From contig CAMPDV010002162.1 of NCBI GenBank assembly GCA_946699065.1, positions 1 to 64,000 on the forward strand: a stretch of DNA of 64,000 nt. The letters are read 5' to 3'. The translations under genes were made by a program, and so were the position numbers. Source of the DNA: Loxodes magnus. Lineage: Eukaryota > Ciliophora > Karyorelictea > Loxodida > Loxodidae. Below, in pieces: positions 1 to 64,000 of this stretch. The notes under the pieces were generated by a model. The model was not told the origin of the DNA. It did not search any database and saw nothing but the letters and a program-made list of their open reading frames with translations. Every line of letters begins with the position of its first letter. The first letter of the stretch is position 1.

Positions 1-120
1 AGTTTTCGTAGCAATCACTAAAATATATTTAAGAATATCCAAAATGTTAGTAATAATGTAATAATAACGAATCTGTATTCGATTAGTCAAGATATGCTTG
101 TAGATGAAAGTTAGCCTATA

Positions 121-200
121 GAAAAGTGAAGAAGTAAAGTAAGAAAAGAAGATAGAATTTCAGTTTTAAGGAGTATGCTTTGAGAAGTAATAAGTATTTA
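121..200. repeat. Reference S unit (class a, 80 bp)
   Basis: Example of the short unit. Bases 121-150 are the 30-bp core, made only of A, G and T. Bases 151-200 are the tail GATAGAATTTCAGTTTTAAG followed by GAGTATGCTTTGAGAAGTAA and TAAGTATTTA. The other S classes differ from it by a few substitutions and by 1-bp or 4-bp deletions giving 79 or 76 bp. The unit has only two C residues against 19 G. Confidence 0.95.
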
Positions 201-362
201 GAAAAGTGAAGAAGTAAAGTAAGAAAAGAATATCTAATGATAAGTTTTCGTAGCAATCACTAAAATATATTTAAGAATATCCAAAATGTTAGTAATAATG
301 TAATAATAACGAATCTGTATTCGGTTAGTCAAGATATGCTTGTAGATGAAAGTTAGCCTATA
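201..362. repeat. Reference L unit (162 bp)
   Basis: Example of the long unit. The first 30 bp are identical to the S core; the 132-bp tail starts TATCTAATGATAAGTTTTCG and ends AGTTAGCCTATA. The tail carries three CpG sites and a short perfect inverted repeat CGAAT-CTGT-ATTCG. Its second half aligns without gaps to the S unit at about half of the first 60 positions, including TATGCTT at the same offset, so L looks like an old S-type dimer. Tail haplotypes differ at TTTTCG/TTTGCG, CAATC/CAAGC, TATTTAAG/TAAGTTGG/TAAGTTAG, TAATAATAACG/CACTAAAACG/CACAATTACG and CGGTTAG/CGATTAG/CGGTTTG. Confidence 0.93.
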
Positions 363-1492
363 GAAAAGTGAAGAAGTAAAGTAAGAAAAGAAGATAGAAT
401 TTCAGATTTAAGGAGTATGCTTTGAGAATTAATAAGTATTTAGAAAAGTGAAGAAGTAAAGTAAGAAAAGAATATCTAATGATAAGTTTTCGTAGCAAGC
501 ACTAAAATATAAGTTAGAATATCCAAAATGTTAGTAATAATGTCACAATTACGAATCTGTATTCGGTTTGTCAAGATATGCTTGTAGATGAAAGTTAGCC
601 TATAGAAAAGTGAAGAAGTAAAGTAAGAAAAGAATATCTAATGATAAGTTTTCGTAGCAATCACTAAAATATATTTAAGAATATCCAAAATGTTAGTAAT
701 AATGTAATAATAACGAATCTGTATTCGGTTAGTCAAGATATGCTTGTAGATGAAAGTTAGCCTATAGAAAAGTGAAGAAGTAAAGTAAGAAAAGAAGATA
801 GAGTTTCAGTTTTAAGGAGTATGCTTTGAGAAGTAATAAGTATTTATAAAAGTGAATAAGTAATGTAAGAAAAGAATATCTAATGATAAGTTTGCGTAGC
901 AAGCACTAAAATATAAGTTGGAATATCCAAAATGTTAGTAATAATGTCACTAAAACGAATCTGTATTCGATTAGTCAAGATATGCTTGTAGATGAAAGTT
1001 AGCCTATAGAAAAGTGAAGAAGTAAAGTAAGAAAAGAAGATAGAATTTCAGTTTTAAGGAGTATGCTTTGAGAAGTAATAAGTATTTAGAAAAGTGAAGA
1101 AGTAAAGTAAGAAAAGAATATCTAATGATAAGTTTTCGTAGCAATCACTAAAATATATTTAAGAATATCCAAAATGTTAGTAATAATGTAATAATAACGA
1201 ATCTGTATTCGATTAGTCAAGATATGCTTGTAGATGAAAGTTAGCCTATAGAAAAGTGAAGAAGTAAAGTAAGAAAAGAAGATAGAGTTTCAGTTTTAAG
1301 GAGTATGCTTTGAGAAGTAATAAGTATTTATAAAAGTGAATAAGTAATGTAAGAAAAGAATATCTAATGATAAGTTTGCGTAGCAATCACTAAAATATAT
1401 TTAAGAATATCCAAAATGTTAGTAATAATGTAATAATAACGAATCTGTATTCGGTTAGTCAAGATATGCTTGTAGATGAAAGTTAGCCTATA

Positions 1493-3237: not shown

Positions 3238-3837
3238 TAAAAGTGAATAAGTAATGTAAGAAAAGAATATCTAATGATAAGTTTGCGTAGCAAGCACTAA
3301 AATATAAGTTGGAATATCCAAAATGTTAGTAATAATGTAATAATAACGAATCTGAATTCGGTTAGTCAAGATATGCTTGTAGATGAAAGTTAGCCTATAG
3401 AAAAGTGAAGAAGTAAAGTAAGAAAAGAAGATAGAATTTCAGATTTAAGGAGTATGCTTTGAGAATTAATAAGTATTTAGAAAAGTGAAGAAGTAAAGTA
3501 AGAAAAGAATATCTAATGATAAGTTTTCGTAGCAAGCACTAAAATATAAGTTAGAATATCCAAAATGTTAGTAATAATGTCACAATTACGAATCTGTATT
3601 CGGTTAGTCAAGATATGCTTGTAGATGAAAGTTAGCCTATAGAAAAGTGAAGAAGTAAAGTAAGAAAAGAAGATAGAATTTCAGATTTAAGGAGTATGCT
3701 TTGAGAATTAATAAGTATTTAGAAAAGTGAAGAAGTAAAGTAAGAAAAGAATATCTAATGATAAGTTTTCGTAGCAATCACTAAAATATATTTAAGAATA
3801 TCCAAAATGTTAGTAATAATGTAATAATAACGAATCT

Positions 3838-6800
3838 GAATTCGGTTAGTCAAGATATGCTTGTAGATGAAAGTTAGCCTATAGAAAAGTGAAGAAGTAA
3901 AGTAAGAAAAGAAGATAGAATTTCAGATTTAAGGAGTATGCTTTGAGAATTAATAAGTATTTAGAAAAGTGAAGAAGTAAAGTAAGAAAAGAATATCTAA
4001 TGATAAGTTTTCGTAGCAAGCACTAAAATATAAGTTAGAATATCCAAAATGTTAGTAATAATGTCACAATTACGAATCTGTATTCGGTTAGTCAAGATAT
4101 GCTTGTAGATGAAAGTTAGCCTATAGAAAAGTGAAGAAGTAAAGTAAGAAAAGAAGATAGAATTTCAGATTTAAGGAGTATGCTTTGAGAATTAATAAGT
4201 ATTTAGAAAAGTGAAGAAGTAAAGTAAGAAAAGAATATCTAATGATAAGTTTTCGTAGCAATCACTAAAATATATTTAAGAATATCCAAAATGTTAGTAA
4301 TAATGTAATAATAACGAATCTGTATTCGGTTAGTCAAGATATGCTTGTAGATGAAAGTTAGCCTATAGAAAAGTGAAGAAGTAAAGTAAGAAAAGAAGAT
4401 AGAGTTTCAGTTTTAAGGAGTATGCTTTGAGAAGTAATAAGTATTTATAAAAGTGAATAAGTAATGTAAGAAAAGAATATCTAATGATAAGTTTGCGTAG
4501 CAAGCACTAAAATATAAGTTGGAATATCCAAAATGTTAGTAATAATGTCACTAAAACGAATCTGTATTCGATTAGTCAAGATATGCTTGTAGATGAAAGT
4601 TAGCCTATAGAAAAGTGAAGAAGTAAAGTAAGAAAAGAAGATAGAATTTCAGTTTTAAGGAGTATGCTTTGAGAAGTAATAAGTATTTAGAAAAGTGAAG
4701 AAGTAAAGTAAGAAAAGAATATCTAATGATAAGTTTTCGTAGCAAGCACTAAAATATATTTAAGAATATCCAAAATGTTAGTAATAATGTAATAATAACG
4801 AATCTGTATTCGGTTAGTCAAGTTATGCTTGTAGATGAAAGTTAGCCTATAGAAAAGTGAAGAAGTAAAGTAAGAAAAGAAGATAGAATTTCAGTTTTAA
4901 GGAGTATGCTTTGAGAAGTAATAAGTATTTAGAAAAGTGAAGAAGTAAAGTAAGAAAAGAATATCTAATGATAAGTTTTCGTAGCAATCACTAAAATATA
5001 TTTAAGAATATCCAAAATGTTAGTAATAATGTAATAATAACGAATCTGTATTCGATTAGTCAAGATATGCTTGTAGATGAAAGTTAGCCTATAGAAAAGT
5101 GAAGAAGTAAAGTAAGAAAAGAAGATAGAATTTCAGTTTTAAGGAGTATGCTTTGAGAAGTAATAAGTATTTAGAAAAGTGAAGAAGTAAAGTAAGAAAA
5201 GAATATCTAATGATAAGTTTTCGTAGCAATCACTAAAATATATTTAAGAATATCCAAAATGTTAGTAATAATGTAATAATAACGAATCTGTATTCGGTTA
5301 GTCAAGATATGCTTGTAGATGAAAGTTAGCCTATAGAAAAGTGAAGAAGTAAAGTAAGAAAAGAAGATAGAGTTTCAGTTTTAAGGAGTATGCTTTGAGA
5401 AGTAATAAGTATTTATAAAAGTGAATAAGTAATGTAAGAAAAGAATATCTAATGATAAGTTTGCGTAGCAAGCACTAAAATATAAGTTGGAATATCCAAA
5501 ATGTTAGTAATAATGTAATAATAACGAATCTGAATTCGGTTAGTCAAGATATGCTTGTAGATGAAAGTTAGCCTATAGAAAAGTGAAGAAGTAAAGTAAG
5601 AAAAGAAGATAGAATTTCAGATTTAAGGAGTATGCTTTGAGAATTAATAAGTATTTAGAAAAGTGAAGAAGTAAAGTAAGAAAAGAATATCTAATGATAA
5701 GTTTTCGTAGCAAGCACTAAAATATAAGTTAGAATATCCAAAATGTTAGTAATAATGTCACAATTACGAATCTGTATTCGGTTAGTCAAGATATGCTTGT
5801 AGATGAAAGTTAGCCTATAGAAAAGTGAAGAAGTAAAGTAAGAAAAGAAGATAGAATTTCAGATTTAAGGAGTATGCTTTGAGAATTAATAAGTATTTAG
5901 AAAAGTGAAGAAGTAAAGTAAGAAAAGAATATCTAATGATAAGTTTTCGTAGCAATCACTAAAATATATTTAAGAATATCCAAAATGTTAGTAATAATGT
6001 AATAATAACGAATCTGTATTCGGTTAGTCAAGATATGCTTGTAGATGAAAGTTAGCCTATAGAAAAGTGAAGAAGTAAAGTAAGAAAAGAAGATAGAGTT
6101 TCAGTTTTAAGGAGTATGCTTTGAGAAGTAATAAGTATTTATAAAAGTGAATAAGTAATGTAAGAAAAGAATATCTAATGATAAGTTTGCGTAGCAAGCA
6201 CTAAAATATAAGTTGGAATATCCAAAATGTTAGTAATAATGTCACTAAAACGAATCTGTATTCGATTAGTCAAGATATGCTTGTAGATGAAAGTTAGCCT
6301 ATAGAAAAGTGAAGAAGTAAAGTAAGAAAAGAAGATAGAATTTCAGTTTTAAGGAGTATGCTTTGAGAAGTAATAAGTATTTAGAAAAGTGAAGAAGTAA
6401 AGTAAGAAAAGAATATCTAATGATAAGTTTTCGTAGCAATCACTAAAATATATTTAAGAATATCCAAAATGTTAGTAATAATGTAATAATAACGAATCTG
6501 TATTCGGTTAGTCAAGTTATGCTTGTAGATGAAAGTTAGCCTATAGAAAAGTGAAGAAGTAAAGTAAGAAAAGAAGATAGAATTTCAGTTTTAAGGAGTA
6601 TGCTTTGAGAAGTAATAAGTATTTAGAAAAGTGAAGAAGTAAAGTAAGAAAAGAATATCTAATGATAAGTTTTCGTAGCAATCACTAAAATATATTTAAG
6701 AATATCCAAAATGTTAGTAATAATGTAATAATAACGAATCTGTATTCGATTAGTCAAGATATGCTTGTAGATGAAAGTTAGCCTATAGAAAAGTGAAGAA

Positions 6801-9800
6801 GTAAAGTAAGAAAAGAAGATAGAATTTCAGTTTTAAGGAGTATGCTTTGAGAAGTAATAAGTATTTAGAAAAGTGAAGAAGTAAAGTAAGAAAAGAATAT
6901 CTAATGATAAGTTTTCGTAGCAATCACTAAAATATATTTAAGAATATCCAAAATGTTAGTAATAATGTAATAATAACGAATCTGTATTCGGTTAGTCAAG
7001 ATATGCTTGTAGATGAAAGTTAGCCTATAGAAAAGTGAAGAAGTAAAGTAAGAAAAGAAGATAGAGTTTCAGTTTTAAGGAGTATGCTTTGAGAAGTAAT
7101 AAGTATTTATAAAAGTGAATAAGTAATGTAAGAAAAGAATATCTAATGATAAGTTTGCGTAGCAAGCACTAAAATATAAGTTGGAATATCCAAAATGTTA
7201 GTAATAATGTAATAATAACGAATCTGAATTCGGTTAGTCAAGATATGCTTGTAGATGAAAGTTAGCCTATAGAAAAGTGAAGAAGTAAAGTAAGAAAAGA
7301 AGATAGAATTTCAGATTTAAGGAGTATGCTTTGAGAATTAATAAGTATTTAGAAAAGTGAAGAAGTAAAGTAAGAAAAGAATATCTAATGATAAGTTTTC
7401 GTAGCAAGCACTAAAATATAAGTTAGAATATCCAAAATGTTAGTAATAATGTCACAATTACGAATCTGTATTCGGTTAGTCAAGATATGCTTGTAGATGA
7501 AAGTTAGCCTATAGAAAAGTGAAGAAGTAAAGTAAGAAAAGAAGATAGAATTTCAGATTTAAGGAGTATGCTTTGAGAATTAATAAGTATTTAGAAAAGT
7601 GAAGAAGTAAAGTAAGAAAAGAATATCTAATGATAAGTTTTCGTAGCAATCACTAAAATATATTTAAGAATATCCAAAATGTTAGTAATAATGTAATAAT
7701 AACGAATCTGTATTCGGTTAGTCAAGATATGCTTGTAGATGAAAGTTAGCCTATAGAAAAGTGAAGAAGTAAAGTAAGAAAAGAAGATAGAGTTTCAGTT
7801 TTAAGGAGTATGCTTTGAGAAGTAATAAGTATTTATAAAAGTGAATAAGTAATGTAAGAAAAGAATATCTAATGATAAGTTTGCGTAGCAAGCACTAAAA
7901 TATAAGTTGGAATATCCAAAATGTTAGTAATAATGTCACTAAAACGAATCTGTATTCGATTAGTCAAGATATGCTTGTAGATGAAAGTTAGCCTATAGAA
8001 AAGTGAAGAAGTAAAGTAAGAAAAGAAGATAGAATTTCAGTTTTAAGGAGTATGCTTTGAGAAGTAATAAGTATTTAGAAAAGTGAAGAAGTAAAGTAAG
8101 AAAAGAATATCTAATGATAAGTTTTCGTAGCAATCACTAAAATATATTTAAGAATATCCAAAATGTTAGTAATAATGTAATAATAACGAATCTGTATTCG
8201 GTTAGTCAAGATATGCTTGTAGATGAAAGTTAGCCTATAGAAAAGTGAAGAAGTAAAGTAAGAAAAGAAGATAGAGTTTCAGTTTTAAGGAGTATGCTTT
8301 GAGAAGTAATAAGTATTTATAAAAGTGAATAAGTAATGTAAGAAAAGAATATCTAATGATAAGTTTTCGTAGCAAGCACTAAAATATAAGTTAGAATATC
8401 CAAAATGTTAGTAATAATGTCACTAAAACGAATCTGTATTCGATTAGTCAAGATATGCTTGTAGATGAAAGTTAGCCTATAGAAAAGTGAAGAAGTAAAG
8501 TAAGAAAAGAAGATAGAATTTCAGTTTTAAGGAGTATGCTTTGAGAAGTAATAAGTATTTAGAAAAGTGAAGAAGTAAAGTAAGAAAAGAATATCTAATG
8601 ATAAGTTTTCGTAGCAATCACTAAAATATATTTAAGAATATCCAAAATGTTAGTAATAATGTAATAATAACGAATCTGTATTCGGTTAGTCAAGATATGC
8701 TTGTAGATGAAAGTTAGCCTATAGAAAAGTGAAGAAGTAAAGTAAGAAAAGAAGATAGAGTTTCAGTTTTAAGGAGTATGCTTTGAGAAGTAATAAGTAT
8801 TTATAAAAGTGAATAAGTAATGTAAGAAAAGAATATCTAATGATAAGTTTGCGTAGCAAGCACTAAAATATAAGTTGGAATATCCAAAATGTTAGTAATA
8901 ATGTAATAATAACGAATCTGAATTCGGTTAGTCAAGATATGCTTGTAGATGAAAGTTAGCCTATAGAAAAGTGAAGAAGTAAAGTAAGAAAAGAAGATAG
9001 AATTTCAGATTTAAGGAGTATGCTTTGAGAATTAATAAGTATTTAGAAAAGTGAAGAAGTAAAGTAAGAAAAGAATATCTAATGATAAGTTTTCGTAGCA
9101 AGCACTAAAATATAAGTTAGAATATCCAAAATGTTAGTAATAATGTCACAATTACGAATCTGTATTCGGTTAGTCAAGATATGCTTGTAGATGAAAGTTA
9201 GCCTATAGAAAAGTGAAGAAGTAAAGTAAGAAAAGAAGATAGAATTTCAGATTTAAGGAGTATGCTTTGAGAATTAATAAGTATTTAGAAAAGTGAAGAA
9301 GTAAAGTAAGAAAAGAATATCTAATGATAAGTTTTCGTAGCAATCACTAAAATATATTTAAGAATATCCAAAATGTTAGTAATAATGTAATAATAACGAA
9401 TCTGTATTCGGTTAGTCAAGATATGCTTGTAGATGAAAGTTAGCCTATAGAAAAGTGAAGAAGTAAAGTAAGAAAAGAAGATAGAGTTTCAGTTTTAAGG
9501 AGTATGCTTTGAGAAGTAATAAGTATTTATAAAAGTGAATAAGTAATGTAAGAAAAGAATATCTAATGATAAGTTTGCGTAGCAAGCACTAAAATATAAG
9601 TTGGAATATCCAAAATGTTAGTAATAATGTCACTAAAACGAATCTGTATTCGATTAGTCAAGATATGCTTGTAGATGAAAGTTAGCCTATAGAAAAGTGA
9701 AGAAGTAAAGTAAGAAAAGAAGATAGAATTTCAGTTTTAAGGAGTATGCTTTGAGAAGTAATAAGTATTTAGAAAAGTGAAGAAGTAAAGTAAGAAAAGA

Positions 9801-10614
9801 ATATCTAATGATAAGTTTTCGTAGCAATCACTAAAATATATTTAAGAATATCCAAAATGTTAGTAATAATGTAATAATAACGAATCTGTATTCGGTTAGT
9901 CAAGATATGCTTGTAGATGAAAGTTAGCCTATAGAAAAGTGAAGAAGTAAAGTAAGAAAAGAAGATAGAGTTTCAGTTTTAAGGAGTATGCTTTGAGAAG
10001 TAATAAGTATTTATAAAAGTGAATAAGTAATGTAAGAAAAGAATATCTAATGATAAGTTTGCGTAGCAAGCACTAAAATATAAGTTGGAATATCCAAAAT
10101 GTTAGTAATAATGTCACTAAAACGAATCTGTATTCGATTAGTCAAGATATGCTTGTAGATGAAAGTTAGCCTATAGAAAAGTGAAGAAGTAAAGTAAGAA
10201 AAGAAGATAGAATTTCAGTTTTAAGGAGTATGCTTTGAGAAGTAATAAGTATTTAGAAAAGTGAAGAAGTAAAGTAAGAAAAGAATATCTAATGATAAGT
10301 TTTCGTAGCAATCACTAAAATATATTTAAGAATATCCAAAATGTTAGTAATAATGTAATAATAACGAATCTGTATTCGGTTAGTCAAGATATGCTTGTAG
10401 ATGAAAGTTAGCCTATAGAAAAGTGAAGAAGTAAAGTAAGAAAAGAAGATAGAGTTTCAGTTTTAAGGAGTATGCTTTGAGAAGTAATAAGTATTTATAA
10501 AAGTGAATAAGTAATGTAAGAAAAGAATATCTAATGATAAGTTTGCGTAGCAAGCACTAAAATATAAGTTGGAATATCCAAAATGTTAGTAATAATGTAA
10601 TAATAACGAATCTG
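3838..10614. repeat. 1694-bp higher-order repeat (seven S-L dimers), four periods
   Basis: A rare L variant with CTGAATTCGG, creating a GAATTC site, occurs at 3838, 5532, 7226, 8920 and 10614, each exactly 1694 bp apart, with one more copy at 3354. A second rare variant, CAAGTTATGC, lies at about 4822 and 6516, again 1694 bp apart. These shared rare variants fix the period; the copies are similar but not identical in the order of L haplotypes. Confidence 0.88.
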
Positions 10615-13034
10615 AATTCGGTTAGTCAAGATATGCTTGTAGATGAAAGTTAGCCTATAGAAAAGTGAAGAAGTAAAGTAAGAAAAGAAGATAGAATTTC
10701 AGATTTAAGGAGTATGCTTTGAGAATTAATAAGTATTTAGAAAAGTGAAGAAGTAAAGTAAGAAAAGAATATCTAATGATAAGTTTTCGTAGCAAGCACT
10801 AAAATATAAGTTAGAATATCCAAAATGTTAGTAATAATGTCACAATTACGAATCTGTATTCGGTTAGTCAAGATATGCTTGTAGATGAAAGTTAGCCTAT
10901 AGAAAAGTGAAGAAGTAAAGTAAGAAAAGAAGATAGAATTTCAGATTTAAGGAGTATGCTTTGAGAATTAATAAGTATTTAGAAAAGTGAAGAAGTAAAG
11001 TAAGAAAAGAATATCTAATGATAAGTTTTCGTAGCAAGCACTAAAATATAAGTTAGAATATCCAAAATGTTAGTAATAATGTCACAATTACGAATCTGTA
11101 TTCGGTTAGTCAAGATATGCTTGTAGATGAAAGTTAGCCTATAGAAAAGTGAAGAAGTAAAGTAAGAAAAGAAGATAGAATTTCAGATTTAAGGAGTATG
11201 CTTTGAGAATTAATAAGTATTTAGAAAAGTGAAGAAGTAAAGTAAGAAAAGAATATCTAATGATAAGTTTTCGTAGCAATCACTAAAATATATTTAAGAA
11301 TATCCAAAATGTTAGTAATAATGTAATAATAACGAATCTGTATTCGGTTAGTCAAGATATGCTTGTAGATGAAAGTTAGCCTATAGAAAAGTGAAGAAGT
11401 AAAGTAAGAAAAGAAGATAGAGTTTCAGTTTTAAGGAGTATGCTTTGAGAAGTAATAAGTATTTATAAAAGTGAATAAGTAATGTAAGAAAAGAATATCT
11501 AATGATAAGTTTGCGTAGCAAGCACTAAAATATAAGTTGGAATATCCAAAATGTTAGTAATAATGTCACTAAAACGAATCTGTATTCGATTAGTCAAGAT
11601 ATGCTTGTAGATGAAAGTTAGCCTATAGAAAAGTGAAGAAGTAAAGTAAGAAAAGAAGATAGAATTTCAGTTTTAAGGAGTATGCTTTGAGAAGTAATAA
11701 GTATTTAGAAAAGTGAAGAAGTAAAGTAAGAAAAGAATATCTAATGATAAGTTTTCGTAGCAATCACTAAAATATATTTAAGAATATCCAAAATGTTAGT
11801 AATAATGTAATAATAACGAATCTGTATTCGGTTAGTCAAGATATGCTTGTAGATGAAAGTTAGCCTATAGAAAAGTGAAGAAGTAAAGTAAGAAAAGAAG
11901 ATAGAGTTTCAGTTTTAAGGAGTATGCTTTGAGAAGTAATAAGTATTTATAAAAGTGAATAAGTAATGTAAGAAAAGAATATCTAATGATAAGTTTGCGT
12001 AGCAAGCACTAAAATATAAGTTGGAATATCCAAAATGTTAGTAATAATGTCACTAAAACGAATCTGTATTCGGTTAGTCAAGATATGCTTGTAGATGAAA
12101 GTTAGCCTATAGAAAAGTGAAGAAGTAAAGTAAGAAAAGAAGATAGAGTTTCAGTTTTAAGGAGTATGCTTTGAGAAGTAATAAGTATTTATAAAAGTGA
12201 ATAAGTAATGTAAGAAAAGAATATCTAATGATAAGTTTGCGTAGCAAGCACTAAAATATAAGTTGGAATATCCAAAATGTTAGTAATAATGTCACTAAAA
12301 CGAATCTGTATTCGATTAGTCAAGATATGCTTGTAGATGAAAGTTAGCCTATAGAAAAGTGAAGAAGTAAAGTAAGAAAAGAAGATAGAATTTCAGTTTT
12401 AAGGAGTATGCTTTGAGAAGTAATAAGTATTTAGAAAAGTGAAGAAGTAAAGTAAGAAAAGAATATCTAATGATAAGTTTTCGTAGCAATCACTAAAATA
12501 TATTTAAGAATATCCAAAATGTTAGTAATAATGTAATAATAACGAATCTGTATTCGGTTAGTCAAGATATGCTTGTAGATGAAAGTTAGCCTATAGAAAA
12601 GTGAAGAAGTAAAGTAAGAAAAGAAGATAGAGTTTCAGTTTTAAGGAGTATGCTTTGAGAAGTAATAAGTATTTATAAAAGTGAATAAGTAATGTAAGAA
12701 AAGAATATCTAATGATAAGTTTGCGTAGCAAGCACTAAAATATAAGTTGGAATATCCAAAATGTTAGTAATAATGTCACTAAAACGAATCTGTATTCGGT
12801 TAGTCAAGATATGCTTGTAGATGAAAGTTAGCCTATAGAAAAGTGAAGAAGTAAAGTAAGAAAAGAAGATAGAGTTTCAGTTTTAAGGAGTATGCTTTGA
12901 GAAGTAATAAGTATTTATAAAAGTGAATAAGTAATGTAAGAAAAGAATATCTAATGATAAGTTTTCGTAGCAAGCACTAAAATATAAGTTAGAATATCCA
13001 AAATGTTAGTAATAATGTCACTAAAACGAATCTG

Positions 13035-44775: not shown

Positions 44776-45010
44776 GAAAAGTGAAGAAGTAAAGTAAGAA
44801 AAGAAGATAGAGTTTCAGTTTTAATATACTTAGAGAAGTAATAAGTATTTAGAAAAGTGAAGAAGTAAAGTAAGAAAAGAAGATAGAGTTTCAGTTTAAG
44901 GAGTATGCTTTGTGTAGTAATAAGTATTACGAAAAGTGAAGAAGTAAAGTAAGAAAAGAAGATAGAATTTCAGATTTAAGGAGTATGCTTTGAGAATTAA
45001 TAAGTATTTA
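44776..45010. repeat. 3-unit S remnant g-h-b (235 bp)
   Basis: Fifth and last g-h-b remnant, 1123 bp after the previous one. Confidence 0.92.
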
Positions 45011-51006: not shown

Positions 51007-52592
51007 GAAAAGTGAAGAAGTAAAGTAAGAAAAGAAGATAGAATTTCAGATTTAAGGAGTATGCTTTGAGAAGAAGAAGTAGTTAGAAAAGTGAAGAAGT
51101 AAAGTAAGAAAAGAAGATAGAGTTTCAGTTTTAAGGAGTATGCTTAGAGAAGTAATAATTATTCAGAAAAGTGAAGAAGTAAAGTAAGAAAAGAAGATAG
51201 AGTTTCAGTTTTAAGTAGTATGCTCTGAGAAGTATTAAGTATTTCGAAAAGTGAAGAAGTAAAGTAAGAAAAGAAGATAGAGTTTCAGTTTTAATATACT
51301 TAGAGAAGTAATAAGTATTTAGAAAAGTGAAGAAGTAAAGTAAGAAAAGAAGATAGAGTTTCAGTTTTAATATACTTAGAGAAGTAATAAGTATTTCGAA
51401 AAGTGAAGAAGTAAAGTAAGAAAAGAAGATAGAGTTTCAGTTTCAAGGAGTATGCTTTGAGAAGAAGAAGTAGTTAGAAAAGTGAAGAAGTAAAGTAAGA
51501 AAAGAAGATAGAGTTTCAGTTTAAGGAGTATGCTTTGAGAAGTAATAATTATTCAGAAAAGTGAAGAAGTAAAGTAAGAAAAGAAGATAGAGTTTCAGTT
51601 TTAAGTAGTATGCTCTGAGAAGTATTAAGTATTTCGAAAAGTGAAGAAGTAAAGTAAGAAAAGAAGATAGAGTTTCAGTTTTAATATACTTAGAGAAGTA
51701 ATAAGTATTTAGAAAAGTGAAGAAGTAAAGTAAGAAAAGAAGATAGAGTTTCAGTTTTAATATACTTAGAGAAGTAATAAGTATTTAGAAAAGTGAAGAA
51801 GTAAAGTAAGAAAAGAAGATAGAGTTTCAGTTTAAGGAGTATGCTTTGTGTAGTAATAAGTATTACGAAAAGTGAAGAAGTAAAGTAAGAAAAGAAGATA
51901 GAATTTCAGATTTAAGGAGTATGCTTTGAGAATTAATAAGTATTTAGAAAAGTGAAGAAGTAAAGTAAGAAAAGAATATCTAATGATAAGTTTGCGTAGC
52001 AAGCACTAAAATATAAGTTGGAATATCCAAAATGTTAGTAATAATGTCACTAAAACGAATCTGTATTCGATTAGTCAAGATATGCTTGTAGATGAAAGTT
52101 AGCCTATAGAAAAGTGAAGAAGTAAAGTAAGAAAAGAAGATAGAGTTTCAGTTTTAAGGAGTATGCTTTGAGAAGTAATAAGTATTTATAAAAGTGAATA
52201 AGTAATGTAAGAAAAGAATATCTAATGATAAGTTTGCGTAGCAATCACTAAAATATATTTAAGAATATCCAAAATGTTAGTAATAATGTAATAATAACGA
52301 ATCTGTATTCGATTAGTCAAGATATGCTTGTAGATGAAAGTTAGCCTATAGAAAAGTGAAGAAGTAAAGTAAGAAAAGAAGATAGAGTTTCAGTTTTAAG
52401 GAGTATGCTTTGAGAAGTAATAAGTATTTATAAAAGTGAATAAGTAATGTAAGAAAAGAATATCTAATGATAAGTTTGCGTAGCAATCACTAAAATATAT
52501 TTAAGAATATCCAAAATGTTAGTAATAATGTAATAATAACGAATCTGTATTCGGTTAGTCAAGATATGCTTGTAGATGAAAGTTAGCCTATA
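51007..52592. repeat. 1586-bp higher-order repeat, copy 3
   Basis: Cassette 51007-51946 and L-S-L-S-L 51947-52592. No difference from copy 1 was noticed by eye. Confidence 0.94.
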
Positions 52593-54178
52593 GAAAAGTG
52601 AAGAAGTAAAGTAAGAAAAGAAGATAGAATTTCAGATTTAAGGAGTATGCTTTGAGAAGAAGAAGTAGTTAGAAAAGTGAAGAAGTAAAGTAAGAAAAGA
52701 AGATAGAGTTTCAGTTTTAAGGAGTATGCTTAGAGAAGTAATAATTATTCAGAAAAGTGAAGAAGTAAAGTAAGAAAAGAAGATAGAGTTTCAGTTTTAA
52801 GTAGTATGCTCTGAGAAGTATTAAGTATTTCGAAAAGTGAAGAAGTAAAGTAAGAAAAGAAGATAGAGTTTCAGTTTTAATATACTTAGAGAAGTAATAA
52901 GTATTTAGAAAAGTGAAGAAGTAAAGTAAGAAAAGAAGATAGAGTTTCAGTTTTAATATACTTAGAGAAGTAATAAGTATTTCGAAAAGTGAAGAAGTAA
53001 AGTAAGAAAAGAAGATAGAGTTTCAGTTTCAAGGAGTATGCTTTGAGAAGAAGAAGTAGTTAGAAAAGTGAAGAAGTAAAGTAAGAAAAGAAGATAGAGT
53101 TTCAGTTTAAGGAGTATGCTTTGAGAAGTAATAATTATTCAGAAAAGTGAAGAAGTAAAGTAAGAAAAGAAGATAGAGTTTCAGTTTTAAGTAGTATGCT
53201 CTGAGAAGTATTAAGTATTTCGAAAAGTGAAGAAGTAAAGTAAGAAAAGAAGATAGAGTTTCAGTTTTAATATACTTAGAGAAGTAATAAGTATTTAGAA
53301 AAGTGAAGAAGTAAAGTAAGAAAAGAAGATAGAGTTTCAGTTTTAATATACTTAGAGAAGTAATAAGTATTTAGAAAAGTGAAGAAGTAAAGTAAGAAAA
53401 GAAGATAGAGTTTCAGTTTAAGGAGTATGCTTTGTGTAGTAATAAGTATTACGAAAAGTGAAGAAGTAAAGTAAGAAAAGAAGATAGAATTTCAGATTTA
53501 AGGAGTATGCTTTGAGAATTAATAAGTATTTAGAAAAGTGAAGAAGTAAAGTAAGAAAAGAATATCTAATGATAAGTTTGCGTAGCAAGCACTAAAATAT
53601 AAGTTGGAATATCCAAAATGTTAGTAATAATGTCACTAAAACGAATCTGTATTCGATTAGTCAAGATATGCTTGTAGATGAAAGTTAGCCTATAGAAAAG
53701 TGAAGAAGTAAAGTAAGAAAAGAAGATAGAGTTTCAGTTTTAAGGAGTATGCTTTGAGAAGTAATAAGTATTTATAAAAGTGAATAAGTAATGTAAGAAA
53801 AGAATATCTAATGATAAGTTTGCGTAGCAATCACTAAAATATATTTAAGAATATCCAAAATGTTAGTAATAATGTAATAATAACGAATCTGTATTCGATT
53901 AGTCAAGATATGCTTGTAGATGAAAGTTAGCCTATAGAAAAGTGAAGAAGTAAAGTAAGAAAAGAAGATAGAGTTTCAGTTTTAAGGAGTATGCTTTGAG
54001 AAGTAATAAGTATTTATAAAAGTGAATAAGTAATGTAAGAAAAGAATATCTAATGATAAGTTTGCGTAGCAATCACTAAAATATATTTAAGAATATCCAA
54101 AATGTTAGTAATAATGTAATAATAACGAATCTGTATTCGGTTAGTCAAGATATGCTTGTAGATGAAAGTTAGCCTATA
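52593..54178. repeat. 1586-bp higher-order repeat, copy 4
   Basis: Cassette 52593-53532 and L-S-L-S-L 53533-54178. No difference from copy 1 was noticed by eye. Confidence 0.94.
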
Positions 54179-55764
54179 GAAAAGTGAAGAAGTAAAGTAA
54201 GAAAAGAAGATAGAATTTCAGATTTAAGGAGTATGCTTTGAGAAGAAGAAGTAGTTAGAAAAGTGAAGAAGTAAAGTAAGAAAAGAAGATAGAGTTTCAG
54301 TTTTAAGGAGTATGCTTAGAGAAGTAATAATTATTCAGAAAAGTGAAGAAGTAAAGTAAGAAAAGAAGATAGAGTTTCAGTTTTAAGTAGTATGCTCTGA
54401 GAAGTATTAAGTATTTCGAAAAGTGAAGAAGTAAAGTAAGAAAAGAAGATAGAGTTTCAGTTTTAATATACTTAGAGAAGTAATAAGTATTTAGAAAAGT
54501 GAAGAAGTAAAGTAAGAAAAGAAGATAGAGTTTCAGTTTTAATATACTTAGAGAAGTAATAAGTATTTCGAAAAGTGAAGAAGTAAAGTAAGAAAAGAAG
54601 ATAGAGTTTCAGTTTCAAGGAGTATGCTTTGAGAAGAAGAAGTAGTTAGAAAAGTGAAGAAGTAAAGTAAGAAAAGAAGATAGAGTTTCAGTTTAAGGAG
54701 TATGCTTTGAGAAGTAATAATTATTCAGAAAAGTGAAGAAGTAAAGTAAGAAAAGAAGATAGAGTTTCAGTTTTAAGTAGTATGCTCTGAGAAGTATTAA
54801 GTATTTCGAAAAGTGAAGAAGTAAAGTAAGAAAAGAAGATAGAGTTTCAGTTTTAATATACTTAGAGAAGTAATAAGTATTTAGAAAAGTGAAGAAGTAA
54901 AGTAAGAAAAGAAGATAGAGTTTCAGTTTTAATATACTTAGAGAAGTAATAAGTATTTAGAAAAGTGAAGAAGTAAAGTAAGAAAAGAAGATAGAGTTTC
55001 AGTTTAAGGAGTATGCTTTGTGTAGTAATAAGTATTACGAAAAGTGAAGAAGTAAAGTAAGAAAAGAAGATAGAATTTCAGATTTAAGGAGTATGCTTTG
55101 AGAATTAATAAGTATTTAGAAAAGTGAAGAAGTAAAGTAAGAAAAGAATATCTAATGATAAGTTTGCGTAGCAAGCACTAAAATATAAGTTGGAATATCC
55201 AAAATGTTAGTAATAATGTCACTAAAACGAATCTGTATTCGATTAGTCAAGATATGCTTGTAGATGAAAGTTAGCCTATAGAAAAGTGAAGAAGTAAAGT
55301 AAGAAAAGAAGATAGAGTTTCAGTTTTAAGGAGTATGCTTTGAGAAGTAATAAGTATTTATAAAAGTGAATAAGTAATGTAAGAAAAGAATATCTAATGA
55401 TAAGTTTGCGTAGCAATCACTAAAATATATTTAAGAATATCCAAAATGTTAGTAATAATGTAATAATAACGAATCTGTATTCGATTAGTCAAGATATGCT
55501 TGTAGATGAAAGTTAGCCTATAGAAAAGTGAAGAAGTAAAGTAAGAAAAGAAGATAGAGTTTCAGTTTTAAGGAGTATGCTTTGAGAAGTAATAAGTATT
55601 TATAAAAGTGAATAAGTAATGTAAGAAAAGAATATCTAATGATAAGTTTGCGTAGCAATCACTAAAATATATTTAAGAATATCCAAAATGTTAGTAATAA
55701 TGTAATAATAACGAATCTGTATTCGGTTAGTCAAGATATGCTTGTAGATGAAAGTTAGCCTATA
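54179..55764. repeat. 1586-bp higher-order repeat, copy 5
   Basis: Cassette 54179-55118 and L-S-L-S-L 55119-55764. No difference from copy 1 was noticed by eye. Confidence 0.94.
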
Positions 55765-57350
55765 GAAAAGTGAAGAAGTAAAGTAAGAAAAGAAGATAGA
55801 ATTTCAGATTTAAGGAGTATGCTTTGAGAAGAAGAAGTAGTTAGAAAAGTGAAGAAGTAAAGTAAGAAAAGAAGATAGAGTTTCAGTTTTAAGGAGTATG
55901 CTTAGAGAAGTAATAATTATTCAGAAAAGTGAAGAAGTAAAGTAAGAAAAGAAGATAGAGTTTCAGTTTTAAGTAGTATGCTCTGAGAAGTATTAAGTAT
56001 TTCGAAAAGTGAAGAAGTAAAGTAAGAAAAGAAGATAGAGTTTCAGTTTTAATATACTTAGAGAAGTAATAAGTATTTAGAAAAGTGAAGAAGTAAAGTA
56101 AGAAAAGAAGATAGAGTTTCAGTTTTAATATACTTAGAGAAGTAATAAGTATTTCGAAAAGTGAAGAAGTAAAGTAAGAAAAGAAGATAGAGTTTCAGTT
56201 TCAAGGAGTATGCTTTGAGAAGAAGAAGTAGTTAGAAAAGTGAAGAAGTAAAGTAAGAAAAGAAGATAGAGTTTCAGTTTAAGGAGTATGCTTTGAGAAG
56301 TAATAATTATTCAGAAAAGTGAAGAAGTAAAGTAAGAAAAGAAGATAGAGTTTCAGTTTTAAGTAGTATGCTCTGAGAAGTATTAAGTATTTCGAAAAGT
56401 GAAGAAGTAAAGTAAGAAAAGAAGATAGAGTTTCAGTTTTAATATACTTAGAGAAGTAATAAGTATTTAGAAAAGTGAAGAAGTAAAGTAAGAAAAGAAG
56501 ATAGAGTTTCAGTTTTAATATACTTAGAGAAGTAATAAGTATTTAGAAAAGTGAAGAAGTAAAGTAAGAAAAGAAGATAGAGTTTCAGTTTAAGGAGTAT
56601 GCTTTGTGTAGTAATAAGTATTACGAAAAGTGAAGAAGTAAAGTAAGAAAAGAAGATAGAATTTCAGATTTAAGGAGTATGCTTTGAGAATTAATAAGTA
56701 TTTAGAAAAGTGAAGAAGTAAAGTAAGAAAAGAATATCTAATGATAAGTTTGCGTAGCAAGCACTAAAATATAAGTTGGAATATCCAAAATGTTAGTAAT
56801 AATGTCACTAAAACGAATCTGTATTCGATTAGTCAAGATATGCTTGTAGATGAAAGTTAGCCTATAGAAAAGTGAAGAAGTAAAGTAAGAAAAGAAGATA
56901 GAGTTTCAGTTTTAAGGAGTATGCTTTGAGAAGTAATAAGTATTTATAAAAGTGAAGAAGTAAAGTAAGAAAAGAATATCTAATGATAAGTTTTCGTAGC
57001 AATCACTAAAATATATTTAAGAATATCCAAAATGTTAGTAATAATGTAATAATAACGAATCTGTATTCGATTAGTCAAGATATGCTTGTAGATGAAAGTT
57101 AGCCTATAGAAAAGTGAAGAAGTAAAGTAAGAAAAGAAGATAGAGTTTCAGTTTTAAGGAGTATGCTTTGAGAAGTAATAAGTATTTATAAAAGTGAATA
57201 AGTAATGTAAGAAAAGAATATCTAATGATAAGTTTGCGTAGCAATCACTAAAATATATTTAAGAATATCCAAAATGTTAGTAATAATGTAATAATAACGA
57301 ATCTGTATTCGGTTAGTCAAGATATGCTTGTAGATGAAAGTTAGCCTATA
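55765..57350. repeat. 1586-bp higher-order repeat, copy 6 (variant spacer)
   Basis: Cassette 55765-56704, then L 56705, S 56867, L 56947, S 57109, L 57189-57350. The middle L (56947) differs from the other copies: its core is the hybrid TAAAAGTGAAGAAGTAAAG and its tail starts AAGTTTTCG instead of AAGTTTGCG. It marks the edge of the homogenised block. Confidence 0.93.
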
Positions 57351-58211
57351 GAAAAGTGAAGAAGTAAAGTAAGAAAAGAAGATAGAATTTCAGATTTAAG
57401 GAGTATGCTTTGAGAAGAAGAAGTAGTTAGAAAAGTGAAGAAGTAAAGTAAGAAAAGAAGATAGAGTTTCAGTTTTAAGGAGTATGCTTAGAGAAGTAAT
57501 AATTATTCAGAAAAGTGAAGAAGTAAAGTAAGAAAAGAAGATAGAGTTTCAGTTTTAAGTAGTATGCTCTGAGAAGTATTAAGTATTTCGAAAAGTGAAG
57601 AAGTAAAGTAAGAAAAGAAGATAGAGTTTCAGTTTTAATATACTTAGAGAAGTAATAAGTATTTAGAAAAGTGAAGAAGTAAAGTAAGAAAAGAAGATAG
57701 AGTTTCAGTTTTAATATACTTAGAGAAGTAATAAGTATTTCGAAAAGTGAAGAAGTAAAGTAAGAAAAGAAGATAGAGTTTCAGTTTCAAGGAGTATGCT
57801 TTGAGAAGAAGAAGTAGTTAGAAAAGTGAAGAAGTAAAGTAAGAAAAGAAGATAGAGTTTCAGTTTAAGGAGTATGCTTTGAGAAGTAATAATTATTCAG
57901 AAAAGTGAAGAAGTAAAGTAAGAAAAGAAGATAGAGTTTCAGTTTTAAGTAGTATGCTCTGAGAAGTATTAAGTATTTCGAAAAGTGAAGAAGTAAAGTA
58001 AGAAAAGAAGATAGAGTTTCAGTTTTAATATACTTAGAGAAGTAATAAGTATTTAGAAAAGTGAAGAAGTAAAGTAAGAAAAGAAGATAGAGTTTCAGTT
58101 TTAATATACTTAGAGAAGTAATAAGTATTTAGAAAAGTGAAGAAGTAAAGTAAGAAAAGAAGATAGAATTTCAGATTTAAGGAGTATGCTTTGAGAATTA
58201 ATAAGTATTTA
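57351..58211. repeat. 11-unit S cassette lacking h (861 bp)
   Basis: Order d-e-f-g-g'-i-j-f-g-g-b. The last g (58100-58131 region onward) passes directly to b with no h, shortening the cassette by exactly 79 bp. All three cassettes right of 57350 share this loss. Confidence 0.93.
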
Positions 58212-60309
58212 GAAAAGTGAAGAAGTAAAGTAAGAAAAGAATATCTAATGATAAGTTTGCGTAGCAAGCACTAAAATATAAGTTGGAATATCCAAAATGT
58301 TAGTAATAATGTCACTAAAACGAATCTGTATTCGATTAGTCAAGATATGCTTGTAGATGAAAGTTAGCCTATAGAAAAGTGAAGAAGTAAAGTAAGAAAA
58401 GAAGATAGAGTTTCAGTTTTAAGGAGTATGCTTTGAGAAGTAATAAGTATTTATAAAAGTGAATAAGTAATGTAAGAAAAGAATATCTAATGATAAGTTT
58501 GCGTAGCAATCACTAAAATATATTTAAGAATATCCAAAATGTTAGTAATAATGTCACTAAAACGAATCTGTATTCGATTAGTCAAGATATGCTTGTAGAT
58601 GAAAGTTAGCCTATAGAAAAGTGAAGAAGTAAAGTAAGAAAAGAAGATAGAGTTTCAGTTTTAAGGAGTATGCTTTGAGAAGTAATAAGTATTTAGAAAA
58701 GTGAAGAAGTAAAGTAAGAAAAGAATATCTAATGATAAGTTTGCGTAGCAAGCACTAAAATATAAGTTGGAATATCCAAAATGTTAGTAATAATGTCACT
58801 AAAACGAATCTGTATTCGATTAGTCAAGATATGCTTGTAGATGAAAGTTAGCCTATAGAAAAGTGAAGAAGTAAAGTAAGAAAAGAAGATAGAGTTTCAG
58901 TTTTAAGGAGTATGCTTTGAGAAGTAATAAGTATTTATAAAAGTGAATAAGTAATGTAAGAAAAGAATATCTAATGATAAGTTTGCGTAGCAAGCACTAA
59001 AATATAAGTTGGAATATCCAAAATGTTAGTAATAATGTCACTAAAACGAATCTGTATTCGATTAGTCAAGATATGCTTGTAGATGAAAGTTAGCCTATAG
59101 AAAAGTGAAGAAGTAAAGTAAGAAAAGAAGATAGAGTTTCAGTTTTAAGGAGTATGCTTTGAGAAGTAATAAGTATTTAGAAAAGTGAAGAAGTAAAGTA
59201 AGAAAAGAATATCTAATGATAAGTTTGCGTAGCAAGCACTAAAATATAAGTTGGAATATCCAAAATGTTAGTAATAATGTCACTAAAACGAATCTGTATT
59301 CGATTAGTCAAGATATGCTTGTAGATGAAAGTTAGCCTATAGAAAAGTGAAGAAGTAAAGTAAGAAAAGAAGATAGAGTTTCAGTTTTAAGGAGTATGCT
59401 TTGAGAAGTAATAAGTATTTAGAAAAGTGAAGAAGTAAAGTAAGAAAAGAATATCTAATGATAAGTTTGCGTAGCAAGCACTAAAATATAAGTTGGAATA
59501 TCCAAAATGTTAGTAATAATGTCACTAAAACGAATCTGTATTCGATTAGTCAAGATATGCTTGTAGATGAAAGTTAGCCTATAGAAAAGTGAAGAAGTAA
59601 AGTAAGAAAAGAAGATAGAGTTTCAGTTTTAAGGAGTATGCTTTGAGAAGTAATAAGTATTTAGAAAAGTGAAGAAGTAAAGTAAGAAAAGAATATCTAA
59701 TGATAAGTTTGCGTAGCAAGCACTAAAATATAAGTTGGAATATCCAAAATGTTAGTAATAATGTCACTAAAACGAATCTGTATTCGATTAGTCAAGATAT
59801 GCTTGTAGATGAAAGTTAGCCTATAGAAAAGTGAAGAAGTAAAGTAAGAAAAGAAGATAGAGTTTCAGTTTTAAGGAGTATGCTTTGAGAAGTAATAAGT
59901 ATTTATAAAAGTGAAGAAGTAAAGTAAGAAAAGAATATCTAATGATAAGTTTTCGTAGCAATCACTAAAATATATTTAAGAATATCCAAAATGTTAGTAA
60001 TAATGTAATAATAACGAATCTGTATTCGATTAGTCAAGATATGCTTGTAGATGAAAGTTAGCCTATAGAAAAGTGAAGAAGTAAAGTAAGAAAAGAAGAT
60101 AGAGTTTCAGTTTTAAGGAGTATGCTTTGAGAAGTAATAAGTATTTATAAAAGTGAATAAGTAATGTAAGAAAAGAATATCTAATGATAAGTTTGCGTAG
60201 CAATCACTAAAATATATTTAAGAATATCCAAAATGTTAGTAATAATGTAATAATAACGAATCTGTATTCGGTTAGTCAAGATATGCTTGTAGATGAAAGT
60301 TAGCCTATA
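58212..60309. repeat. Homogenised dimer block, nine L and eight S
   Basis: L units start every 242 bp from 58212 to 60148. From 58696 to 59825 the L units are all of the GCG/CAAGC/AAGTTGG/CACTAAAACG/CGATTAG type, so the period drops to a plain 242 bp. L 58454-58615 is a mosaic: CAATC and TATTTAAG on the left, CACTAAAACG on the right. The core at 59906 is the hybrid TAAAAGTGAAGAAGTAAAG. Confidence 0.92.
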
Positions 60310-61170
60310 GAAAAGTGAAGAAGTAAAGTAAGAAAAGAAGATAGAATTTCAGATTTAAGGAGTATGCTTTGAGAAGAAGAAGTAGTTAGAAAAGTGAAGA
60401 AGTAAAGTAAGAAAAGAAGATAGAGTTTCAGTTTTAAGGAGTATGCTTAGAGAAGTAATAATTATTCAGAAAAGTGAAGAAGTAAAGTAAGAAAAGAAGA
60501 TAGAGTTTCAGTTTTAAGTAGTATGCTCTGAGAAGTATTAAGTATTTCGAAAAGTGAAGAAGTAAAGTAAGAAAAGAAGATAGAGTTTCAGTTTTAATAT
60601 ACTTAGAGAAGTAATAAGTATTTAGAAAAGTGAAGAAGTAAAGTAAGAAAAGAAGATAGAGTTTCAGTTTTAATATACTTAGAGAAGTAATAAGTATTTC
60701 GAAAAGTGAAGAAGTAAAGTAAGAAAAGAAGATAGAGTTTCAGTTTCAAGGAGTATGCTTTGAGAAGAAGAAGTAGTTAGAAAAGTGAAGAAGTAAAGTA
60801 AGAAAAGAAGATAGAGTTTCAGTTTAAGGAGTATGCTTTGAGAAGTAATAATTATTCAGAAAAGTGAAGAAGTAAAGTAAGAAAAGAAGATAGAGTTTCA
60901 GTTTTAAGTAGTATGCTCTGAGAAGTATTAAGTATTTCGAAAAGTGAAGAAGTAAAGTAAGAAAAGAAGATAGAGTTTCAGTTTTAATATACTTAGAGAA
61001 GTAATAAGTATTTAGAAAAGTGAAGAAGTAAAGTAAGAAAAGAAGATAGAGTTTCAGTTTTAATATACTTAGAGAAGTAATAAGTATTTAGAAAAGTGAA
61101 GAAGTAAAGTAAGAAAAGAAGATAGAATTTCAGATTTAAGGAGTATGCTTTGAGAATTAATAAGTATTTA
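60310..61170. repeat. 11-unit S cassette lacking h (861 bp)
   Basis: Order d-e-f-g-g'-i-j-f-g-g-b, as at 57351; starts 2959 bp later. Confidence 0.93.
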
Positions 61171-62542
61171 GAAAAGTGAAGAAGTAAAGTAAGAAAAGAA
61201 TATCTAATGATAAGTTTGCGTAGCAAGCACTAAAATATAAGTTGGAATATCCAAAATGTTAGTAATAATGTCACTAAAACGAATCTGTATTCGATTAGTC
61301 AAGATATGCTTGTAGATGAAAGTTAGCCTATAGAAAAGTGAAGAAGTAAAGTAAGAAAAGAAGATAGAGTTTCAGTTTTAAGGAGTATGCTTTGAGAAGT
61401 AATAAGTATTTATAAAAGTGAATAAGTAATGTAAGAAAAGAATATCTAATGATAAGTTTGCGTAGCAAGCACTAAAATATAAGTTGGAATATCCAAAATG
61501 TTAGTAATAATGTCACTAAAACGAATCTGTATTCGATTAGTCAAGATATGCTTGTAGATGAAAGTTAGCCTATAGAAAAGTGAAGAAGTAAAGTAAGAAA
61601 AGAAGATAGAGTTTCAGTTTTAAGGAGTATGCTTTGAGAAGTAATAAGTATTTAGAAAAGTGAAGAAGTAAAGTAAGAAAAGAATATCTAATGATAAGTT
61701 TGCGTAGCAAGCACTAAAATATAAGTTGGAATATCCAAAATGTTAGTAATAATGTCACTAAAACGAATCTGTATTCGATTAGTCAAGATATGCTTGTAGA
61801 TGAAAGTTAGCCTATAGAAAAGTGAAGAAGTAAAGTAAGAAAAGAAGATAGAGTTTCAGTTTTAAGGAGTATGCTTTGAGAAGTAATAAGTATTTAGAAA
61901 AGTGAAGAAGTAAAGTAAGAAAAGAATATCTAATGATAAGTTTGCGTAGCAAGCACTAAAATATAAGTTGGAATATCCAAAATGTTAGTAATAATGTCAC
62001 TAAAACGAATCTGTATTCGATTAGTCAAGATATGCTTGTAGATGAAAGTTAGCCTATAGAAAAGTGAAGAAGTAAAGTAAGAAAAGAAGATAGAGTTTCA
62101 GTTTTAAGGAGTATGCTTTGAGAAGTAATAAGTATTTAGAAAAGTGAAGAAGTAAAGTAAGAAAAGAATATCTAATGATAAGTTTGCGTAGCAAGCACTA
62201 AAATATAAGTTGGAATATCCAAAATGTTAGTAATAATGTCACTAAAACGAATCTGTATTCGATTAGTCAAGATATGCTTGTAGATGAAAGTTAGCCTATA
62301 GAAAAGTGAAGAAGTAAAGTAAGAAAAGAAGATAGAGTTTCAGTTTTAAGGAGTATGCTTTGAGAAGTAATAAGTATTTATAAAAGTGAAGAAGTAAAGT
62401 AAGAAAAGAATATCTAATGATAAGTTTTCGTAGCAATCACTAAAATATATTTAAGAATATCCAAAATGTTAGTAATAATGTAATAATAACGAATCTGTAT
62501 TCGATTAGTCAAGATATGCTTGTAGATGAAAGTTAGCCTATA
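61171..62542. repeat. Homogenised dimer block, six L and five S
   Basis: L units start every 242 bp from 61171 to 62381. The first five are of the AAGTTGG/CACTAAAACG/CGATTAG type; the last (62381) has the TTTTCG, CAATC form and the hybrid core TAAAAGTGAAGAAGTAAAG. Confidence 0.92.
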
Positions 62543-63403
62543 GAAAAGTGAAGAAGTAAAGTAAGAAAAGAAGATAGAGTTTCAGTTTTAAGGAGTATGC
62601 TTTGAGAAGAAGAAGTAGTTAGAAAAGTGAAGAAGTAAAGTAAGAAAAGAAGATAGAGTTTCAGTTTTAAGGAGTATGCTTAGAGAAGTAATAATTATTC
62701 AGAAAAGTGAAGAAGTAAAGTAAGAAAAGAAGATAGAGTTTCAGTTTTAAGTAGTATGCTCTGAGAAGTATTAAGTATTTCGAAAAGTGAAGAAGTAAAG
62801 TAAGAAAAGAAGATAGAGTTTCAGTTTTAATATACTTAGAGAAGTAATAAGTATTTAGAAAAGTGAAGAAGTAAAGTAAGAAAAGAAGATAGAGTTTCAG
62901 TTTTAATATACTTAGAGAAGTAATAAGTATTTCGAAAAGTGAAGAAGTAAAGTAAGAAAAGAAGATAGAGTTTCAGTTTCAAGGAGTATGCTTTGAGAAG
63001 AAGAAGTAGTTAGAAAAGTGAAGAAGTAAAGTAAGAAAAGAAGATAGAGTTTCAGTTTAAGGAGTATGCTTTGAGAAGTAATAATTATTCAGAAAAGTGA
63101 AGAAGTAAAGTAAGAAAAGAAGATAGAGTTTCAGTTTTAAGTAGTATGCTCTGAGAAGTATTAAGTATTTCGAAAAGTGAAGAAGTAAAGTAAGAAAAGA
63201 AGATAGAGTTTCAGTTTTAATATACTTAGAGAAGTAATAAGTATTTAGAAAAGTGAAGAAGTAAAGTAAGAAAAGAAGATAGAGTTTCAGTTTTAATATA
63301 CTTAGAGAAGTAATAAGTATTTAGAAAAGTGAAGAAGTAAAGTAAGAAAAGAAGATAGAATTTCAGATTTAAGGAGTATGCTTTGAGAATTAATAAGTAT
63401 TTA
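62543..63403. repeat. 11-unit S cassette lacking h, with hybrid first unit
   Basis: Order d*-e-f-g-g'-i-j-f-g-g-b. The first unit (62543-62621) joins a class c left tail (GATAGAGTTTCAGTTTTAAG) to the class d right tail (AGAAGAAGAAGTAGTTA), a recombinant of a dimer S and a cassette d. Here the spacer also lacks the S-L dimer that usually precedes d. Confidence 0.92.
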
Positions 63404-64000
63404 GAAAAGTGAAGAAGTAAAGTAAGAAAAGAATATCTAATGATAAGTTTGCGTAGCAAGCACTAAAATATAAGTTGGAATATCCAAAATGTTAGTAATA
63501 ATGTCACTAAAACGAATCTGTATTCGATTAGTCAAGATATGCTTGTAGATGAAAGTTAGCCTATAGAAAAGTGAAGAAGTAAAGTAAGAAAAGAAGATAG
63601 AGTTTCAGTTTTAAGGAGTATGCTTTGAGAAGTAATAAGTATTTATAAAAGTGAATAAGTAATGTAAGAAAAGAATATCTAATGATAAGTTTGCGTAGCA
63701 AGCACTAAAATATAAGTTGGAATATCCAAAATGTTAGTAATAATGTCACTAAAACGAATCTGTATTCGATTAGTCAAGATATGCTTGTAGATGAAAGTTA
63801 GCCTATAGAAAAGTGAAGAAGTAAAGTAAGAAAAGAAGATAGAGTTTCAGTTTTAAGGAGTATGCTTTGAGAAGTAATAAGTATTTAGAAAAGTGAAGAA
63901 GTAAAGTAAGAAAAGAATATCTAATGATAAGTTTGCGTAGCAAGCACTAAAATATAAGTTGGAATATCCAAAATGTTAGTAATAATGTCACTAAAACGAA
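63404..64000. repeat. Dimer block running off the right end
   Basis: L 63404-63565, S 63566-63645, L 63646-63807, S 63808-63887, and the first 113 bp of another L (63888-64000). The window ends inside this L. Confidence 0.93.

Follow-up and report, generated by a model that had tools for sequence, protein, structure and literature searches.

The window analysed here is the stretch of 64,000 nucleotides that forms bases 1-64000 of a 66,320-bp contig (C2162) from the ciliate Loxodes magnus, and it consists from end to end of one satellite, the 80-bp family that we term F1, most of whose units open with a 29-bp box, AAAAGTGAAGAAGTAAAGTAAGAAAAGAA, which has no C in it. Tandem Repeats Finder (TRF) reported a single period-80 array spanning 119-63917, and the remainder of the contig (up to base 66320) is the same F1 satellite. 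The 64 kb hold only 911 distinct 21-mers, 86 of them seen once, and no 15-mer is common to the window and its reverse complement. A sequence-only reading of this DNA had proposed pure satellite in a single orientation and had named a tandem-repeat finder as a check; TRF returned one array as expected, and the unit parsing and the 21-mer and 15-mer counts likewise bear the proposal out.

A satellite array with higher-order repeats

Parsing on the box and its close variants gave 610 box starts (516 of them exact copies) and 609 complete units, namely 420 short units (S; 73-80 bp, 16 variants) and 189 long units (L; 162 bp, 21 variants). An L unit is composed of two 81-bp halves, of which L1 carries the box followed by a diverged tail, and L2, whose box is degenerate, is related to S. 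L2 aligns to S with 55 identities in 85 columns (0 of 1000 shuffles as good, and 5 of 1000 with the box excluded), and the likeness of L1 to S beyond the box is at chance level (97 of 1000 shuffles as good). The two unit types proposed earlier are thus both present, but L is not entirely distinct from S, since L2 aligns to S and L1 has the box.

The units are arranged in several levels, whose positions are collected in Table 1. Periods of 242, 484, 1694 and 1586 bp were recovered as proposed, but a supposed 940-bp level was not (no 1-kb bin above 0.39 identity at lag 940), and a 390-bp level failed as a tandem period (no 1-kb bin above 0.57 at lag 390) and survives as a sub-block only. Two neighbouring five-unit blocks inside the 1586-bp repeat, GDBIJ (391 bp) and KDBBH (390 bp), account for the value of about 390 bp, their lengths having been summed by hand from the unit letters. 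The longest exact repeat in the window is 8171 bp, and together with the six consecutive 1586-bp copies it points to recent recombination. Private 21-mers occur in only six runs, so that homogenisation was either very recent or the differences were polished away by the assembly. As a long head-to-tail, non-coding array with multi-unit periods, the window belongs to satellite DNA with higher-order repeats, which supports the earlier view of a eukaryotic multi-level satellite of heterochromatin type.

Table 1. Features of the window
Feature	Position	Strand	Remarks
Continuous satellite array, F1 (80-bp) box family	1..64000	+	TRF, k-mers, unit parsing
First of 610 copies of the 29-bp box AAAAGTGAAGAAGTAAAGTAAGAAAAGAA or close variant	122..150	+	
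First complete short unit S (variant E, 80 bp): box + ~51-bp variable tail	122..201	+	
First complete long unit L (162 bp): L1 + L2	202..363	+	
S-L dimer domain, 242 bp, super-periods 484 and 1694 bp	3300..18400	+	borders approximate, by eye
Mixed domain: S-L dimers in alternation with S-rich blocks (e.g. FGDBIJKDBBHCb)	18500..47300	+	borders approximate
Six consecutive 1586-bp, 17-unit higher-order repeats (AfAaFGDBIJKDBBHCb)	47352..56867	+	
Mixed domain, lags 2959 and 2233, runs of L-b dimers	56868..64000	+	

A coding or structured-RNA reading was ruled out by the open reading frames (the six listed for the window encode 67-78 amino acids), by the silence of Rfam, in which nothing in the window reached gathering score, and by weak folds. 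The DNA fold signal was z -0.6 for S and z -1.5 for L1, and the small hairpin of L2 (CGAAT-ctgt-ATTCG, z -2.1) is too weak as a basis; a tRNA search of the window found none. A phage, plasmid, viral or prokaryote origin was likewise rejected, as window bases 1-2100 had no match in the phage and plasmid collections and the exact box had none among viral and prokaryote contigs.

The box families across the genome

The assembly comprises 705,730,643 bp in 7,843 contigs; the published L. magnus assemblies are 706 Mbp for the macronucleus (MAC) and 848 Mbp for the micronucleus (MIC) (PMC11441545), and the window very probably comes from the macronuclear one. The array is therefore very probably not a micronucleus-limited, eliminated ciliate repeat, since its genome matches the macronuclear assembly by size, and it would belong to the low-complexity tandem repeats of the MAC, which are reported to total 231 Mbp (PMC11441545). 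Tubulin matches in the genome contain many in-frame TAA/TAG and some TGA codons, and four tubulin stretches translated with TAA/TAG as glutamine and TGA as tryptophan give normal tubulin-like sequence, e.g., GNNWAKGHYTEGAEL. The tubulin genes are themselves in large clusters: at least 21 matches fall on C64, and on C441 nine copies are spaced exactly 3342 bp apart.

Genome-wide, the exact box occurs in 364,545 copies (192,855 forward, 171,690 reverse), and a control with the letters of the box reversed gave 0 on either strand. At the density of the window these copies would amount to some 45 Mb (6.4% of the assembly), which is a rough figure. One single-letter variant of the box, with 102 copies, is rare beside the exact form; two other variants gave 686 and 227 copies, although they were queried with 13 extra tail letters and are not directly comparable. 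Satellite also fills contigs C7662, C3166 and C3440, and 30 kb of C4362 (32.5 kb long), any gap in the satellite cover being shorter than 25 bp.

We sampled 78 contig-end stretches in two sets, 18 (L027-L044) and 60 (L055-L114, of which L058 is all N), and 43 of the 78 bear a tandem stretch of at least 200 bp with a period of up to 130 bp. The box was matched in 31 of these 43 (0 of 200 shuffles as good) and was not matched in the other 12 (at least 6 of 200 shuffles as good). Grouped by eye, the 31 box-bearing samples form about eight families with periods of 79-107 bp, so the window is part of a large family with ~80-bp units and a common 29-bp box, which is one of about eight related families. 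Among 11 consensus units, one or two chosen per family, pairwise identity is 0.87 in the box columns and 0.43 in the remainder. The box exceeds the remainder in 55 of 55 pairs, which are not independent of one another, and a 29-column block offset from the box by a single base scores best. The box is thus an old core that the families have in common, whereas their tails have diverged. Within the 80-bp family, units collected through a tail anchor (102 distinct units) have a mismatch rate per site of 0.028 within the box against 0.050 outside it.

Two further satellite families lack the box (L029/L036/L038, periods 91-103 bp, and L027/L106, periods 79-88 bp). Tandem repeats of 123-126 bp were seen at the start of C5500 and at ends of C4, C6, C18 and C100 (L040, L055, L068, L082, L095, L097), and L040, read by eye, resembles WD40 repeats with an in-frame TGA at a tryptophan position; arrays of coding repeats, too, seem to break the assembly.

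The nucleosome repeat of Loxodes is 160 bp (PMC11441545), so that S is about half and L about one repeat in length. Nucleosome phasing was set aside as an explanation in view of the periods of the sister families (84-107 bp) and by the lack of a clear ~10-bp AT periodicity, and we leave the match as coincidence or history.

Orientation at the contig ends

We examined 58 ends in total, one of them all N: both ends of C1-C25 and the left end of each of C26-C33. F1 lies at 16 of the 58, and its purine/G-rich strand runs outward in all 16 (two-sided binomial p 3e-5). Other box families (box score of at least 36) lie at 11 ends; 9 of these point outward and 2 point inward, which brings all box-family ends to 25 of 27 outward (two-sided binomial p 6e-6). 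In maps of the rare box variants, C80, C190, C209, C224 and C272 are outward among the matches listed, and so, among the matches listed, are C126 and C247, whose size class was assigned by rank; on contigs of at least about 400 kb, F1 is outward in 23 of 23. Thus, where it is found on the largest contigs, F1 stands near their ends with the purine/G-rich strand outward, and at large contig ends the G-rich strand runs 5'->3' toward the end, as in complex telomeric repeats kept without telomerase. This polarity is seen at contig ends, which are not proven chromosome ends. Internal arrays in one orientation would give equal numbers of outward and inward flanks, so the polarity needs either terminal arrays or internal arrays that flip. 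Outside the polarity counts are C346, C411, C679, C957 and many contigs below 110 kb, as well as a few lower-ranked ends, among which C525 at its right end, and C2000 and C3000 (other families) at their left ends, are outward.

In the contig interiors, C1, C2 and C3 up to 2,277,910 (7.97 Mb) contain one exact box among the matches listed. It belongs to a lone S-type unit at C2:1,901,418 (L026), with 89 nt aligned at one mismatch (one 80-bp unit plus 9 nt), in unique AT-rich DNA, and it may stem from a circle that reinserted or be what is left of an array that contracted. On C3, units at the edge of unique DNA (2,277,500-2,280,000; L025) are mostly 86-89 bp long, one being 77 bp, and 22 of 27 are distinct; at the right end (L077) they are 79-80 bp long, 5 of 6 being distinct.

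Chromosome ends, centromeres and the box

These outward-facing relatives on large contigs suggest a location at chromosome ends no less than one at centromeres, and the centromeric placement inferred in the sequence-only reading gains no support from the results. Our preferred reading, to which we would assign a probability of roughly 45%, is that the box-satellite arrays are recombination-homogenised, end-proximal heterochromatin, subtelomeric and possibly serving as functional ends. We infer a terminal position, a recombination route and protein binding at the box: the arrays would form the outer heterochromatin of the chromosomes, unequal exchange, gene conversion or break-induced replication, in place of telomerase, may lengthen and homogenise them, and the box would be the putative binding site of a chromatin protein while the tails drift. 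The telomeres and telomerase of Loxodes "have eluded our detection" according to its genome report (PMC11441545), and our search for the telomerase domain PF12009 gave 0 matches in the genome, which, with 14 control genomes just as silent, bears on the question in neither direction. The box satellites, facing outward at ends of large contigs, are a candidate for L. magnus chromosome ends. A stronger version, in which ~80-bp box satellites have replaced telomerase-made repeats and serve as the Loxodes telomeres in both nuclei, maintained through recombination and capped at every chromosome end by a single box-binding protein, seems to us rather doubtful.

The closest parallel is found in the Meloidogyne incognita group, in its composite telomeric repeats (PMC10844300), whose 80-100-bp motifs are enriched at contig ends as they are here, and which comprise one conserved and other variable motifs, are G-rich and strand-oriented, and occur where no telomerase was found. 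These are nematode repeats, and the likeness is one of description. Complex terminal satellites of Chironomus and Anopheles are likewise long units at chromosome ends that are kept by recombination (PMC9498494), although the units of Chironomus are ~350 bp and the terminal location reported there is for Loxodes a deduction.

Several observations weigh against an end-proximal origin. Contigs break at long repeats anyway, so a contig-end position alone proves nothing, and ~45 Mb is much for telomeres alone. Both inward ends belong to a single 89-bp family (2 of 2 inward), and F1 on contigs of 110-320 kb is outward in just 10 of 14 (p 0.18; C423, C581, C656 and C904 are inward, and C356 was excluded because its hits span the contig), although some of these contigs may be all satellite, which would make the sign of the polarity meaningless there. 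The left ends of C1000 and C2500, uncounted, carry forward-strand arrays that would be inward if the contigs hold unique DNA. Orientation switches occur in two of the four other satellite contigs, converging in C3166 and diverging in C4362. As for the box, the families were recognised by it, which favours the between-family result, and within the 80-bp family its mismatch exceeds that of the remainder in two of five contig-strands (C3440 and C3166 minus), so that the within-family constraint is mixed and selection on the box is, judged from these alignments, plausible.

Box-bearing higher-order repeats are also familiar from centromeres. In alpha satellite with its CENP-B box, the units form higher-order repeats, and some units have the box while others have a degenerate form of it; the Loxodes array is alike, by description only, in its higher-order repeats and partly degenerate box. 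The holocentromere repeats of Meloidogyne are reportedly AT-rich, boxed tandem repeats. Its CenH3-associated repeats are diverged tandem families with one conserved 19-bp box, as in Loxodes (PMC9673304), but that box, TCGGGCCTTCGGCCCTCGC, is by eye GC-rich and unlike the C-less Loxodes box (PMC10630426). Box sequence, genetic code and genome size together rule out identity with these repeats, and the CenH3 linkage is a feature of Meloidogyne, whereas the Loxodes box is known from sequence alone. A centromeric explanation draws on such nesting of repeats and on the conservation of a box among diverged units: the arrays would be pericentromeric or centromeric in micronuclear chromosomes, with internal inversions making both flanks outward and the box recruiting a centromere protein. 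The converging inversion of C3166, near 33,086, is of the kind expected, its arms having a 7.8-kb stretch in common at 99.5% identity with an offset of ~1.5 kb, and it is either a recent inverted duplication or an assembly chimera. However, the switch in C4362 runs the opposite way, an internal array in one orientation would face inward as often as outward, yet 0 of the 16 sampled F1 ends do, and several satellite families occupy such places, mostly with outward polarity. Because the somatic nuclei of Loxodes cannot divide (PMC11441545), an active centromere role is excluded in the macronucleus and only the micronucleus could host it. On balance we regard the centromeric explanation as somewhat unlikely.

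The arrays might instead have no function at all, having spread by unequal exchange and rolling-circle reinsertion, with a polarity that stems from seeding or replication-fork bias and a box that is simply the oldest core. The number of families, their very recent homogenisation, the lone unit on C2 and the uneven conservation of the box within the family all fit such a history, but the 23 of 23 outward arrays on contigs of about 400 kb or more and the contrast between box (0.87) and tails (0.43) would each need an extra cause, and we think this explanation improbable.

That the long-range order of the window is a product of assembly, with collapsed or mis-joined HiFi reads mimicking perfect higher-order repeats, is very improbable: the authors of the genome report do ascribe the MIC-MAC size difference to misassembled low-complexity repeats (PMC11441545), and the first 5296 bases are identical in C2162 and C7662, as at a fork in an assembly graph, so that the window start is probably no biological boundary, but the units, the box and the 242- and 1586-bp periods are shorter than a usual HiFi read, and 364,545 boxes are not explained by a few mis-joins.

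Pieces of the window sequence had no occurrence in a literature search, and no known satellite was recognised in the papers and the phage, plasmid, viral and prokaryote collections searched. The words "satellite" and "centromer" have 0 uses in the main text of the Loxodes paper, and in the sections consulted we found no description of the families, the box or the polarity (PMC11441545). A literature search for Loxodes satellites, judged by titles and abstract starts, found none described. The bulk tandem repeats of the genome were already known; the family, its box and its polarity are apparently undescribed.

Ciliates are the group in which telomerase was discovered and its textbook case. In the ciliate Loxodes, no extensive genome editing is detectable (PMC11441545). 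An abundant, oriented, box-bearing satellite near the outer contig ends provides a concrete sequence for the question of the Loxodes chromosome end. If the arrays are terminal, a ciliate would have abandoned the telomerase system; if they are centromeric, they would be a satellite candidate for the karyorelict centromere, for which we found none in the literature searched (titles and abstract starts). Either way, L. magnus holds a box of very high copy number that is common to diverged satellite families.

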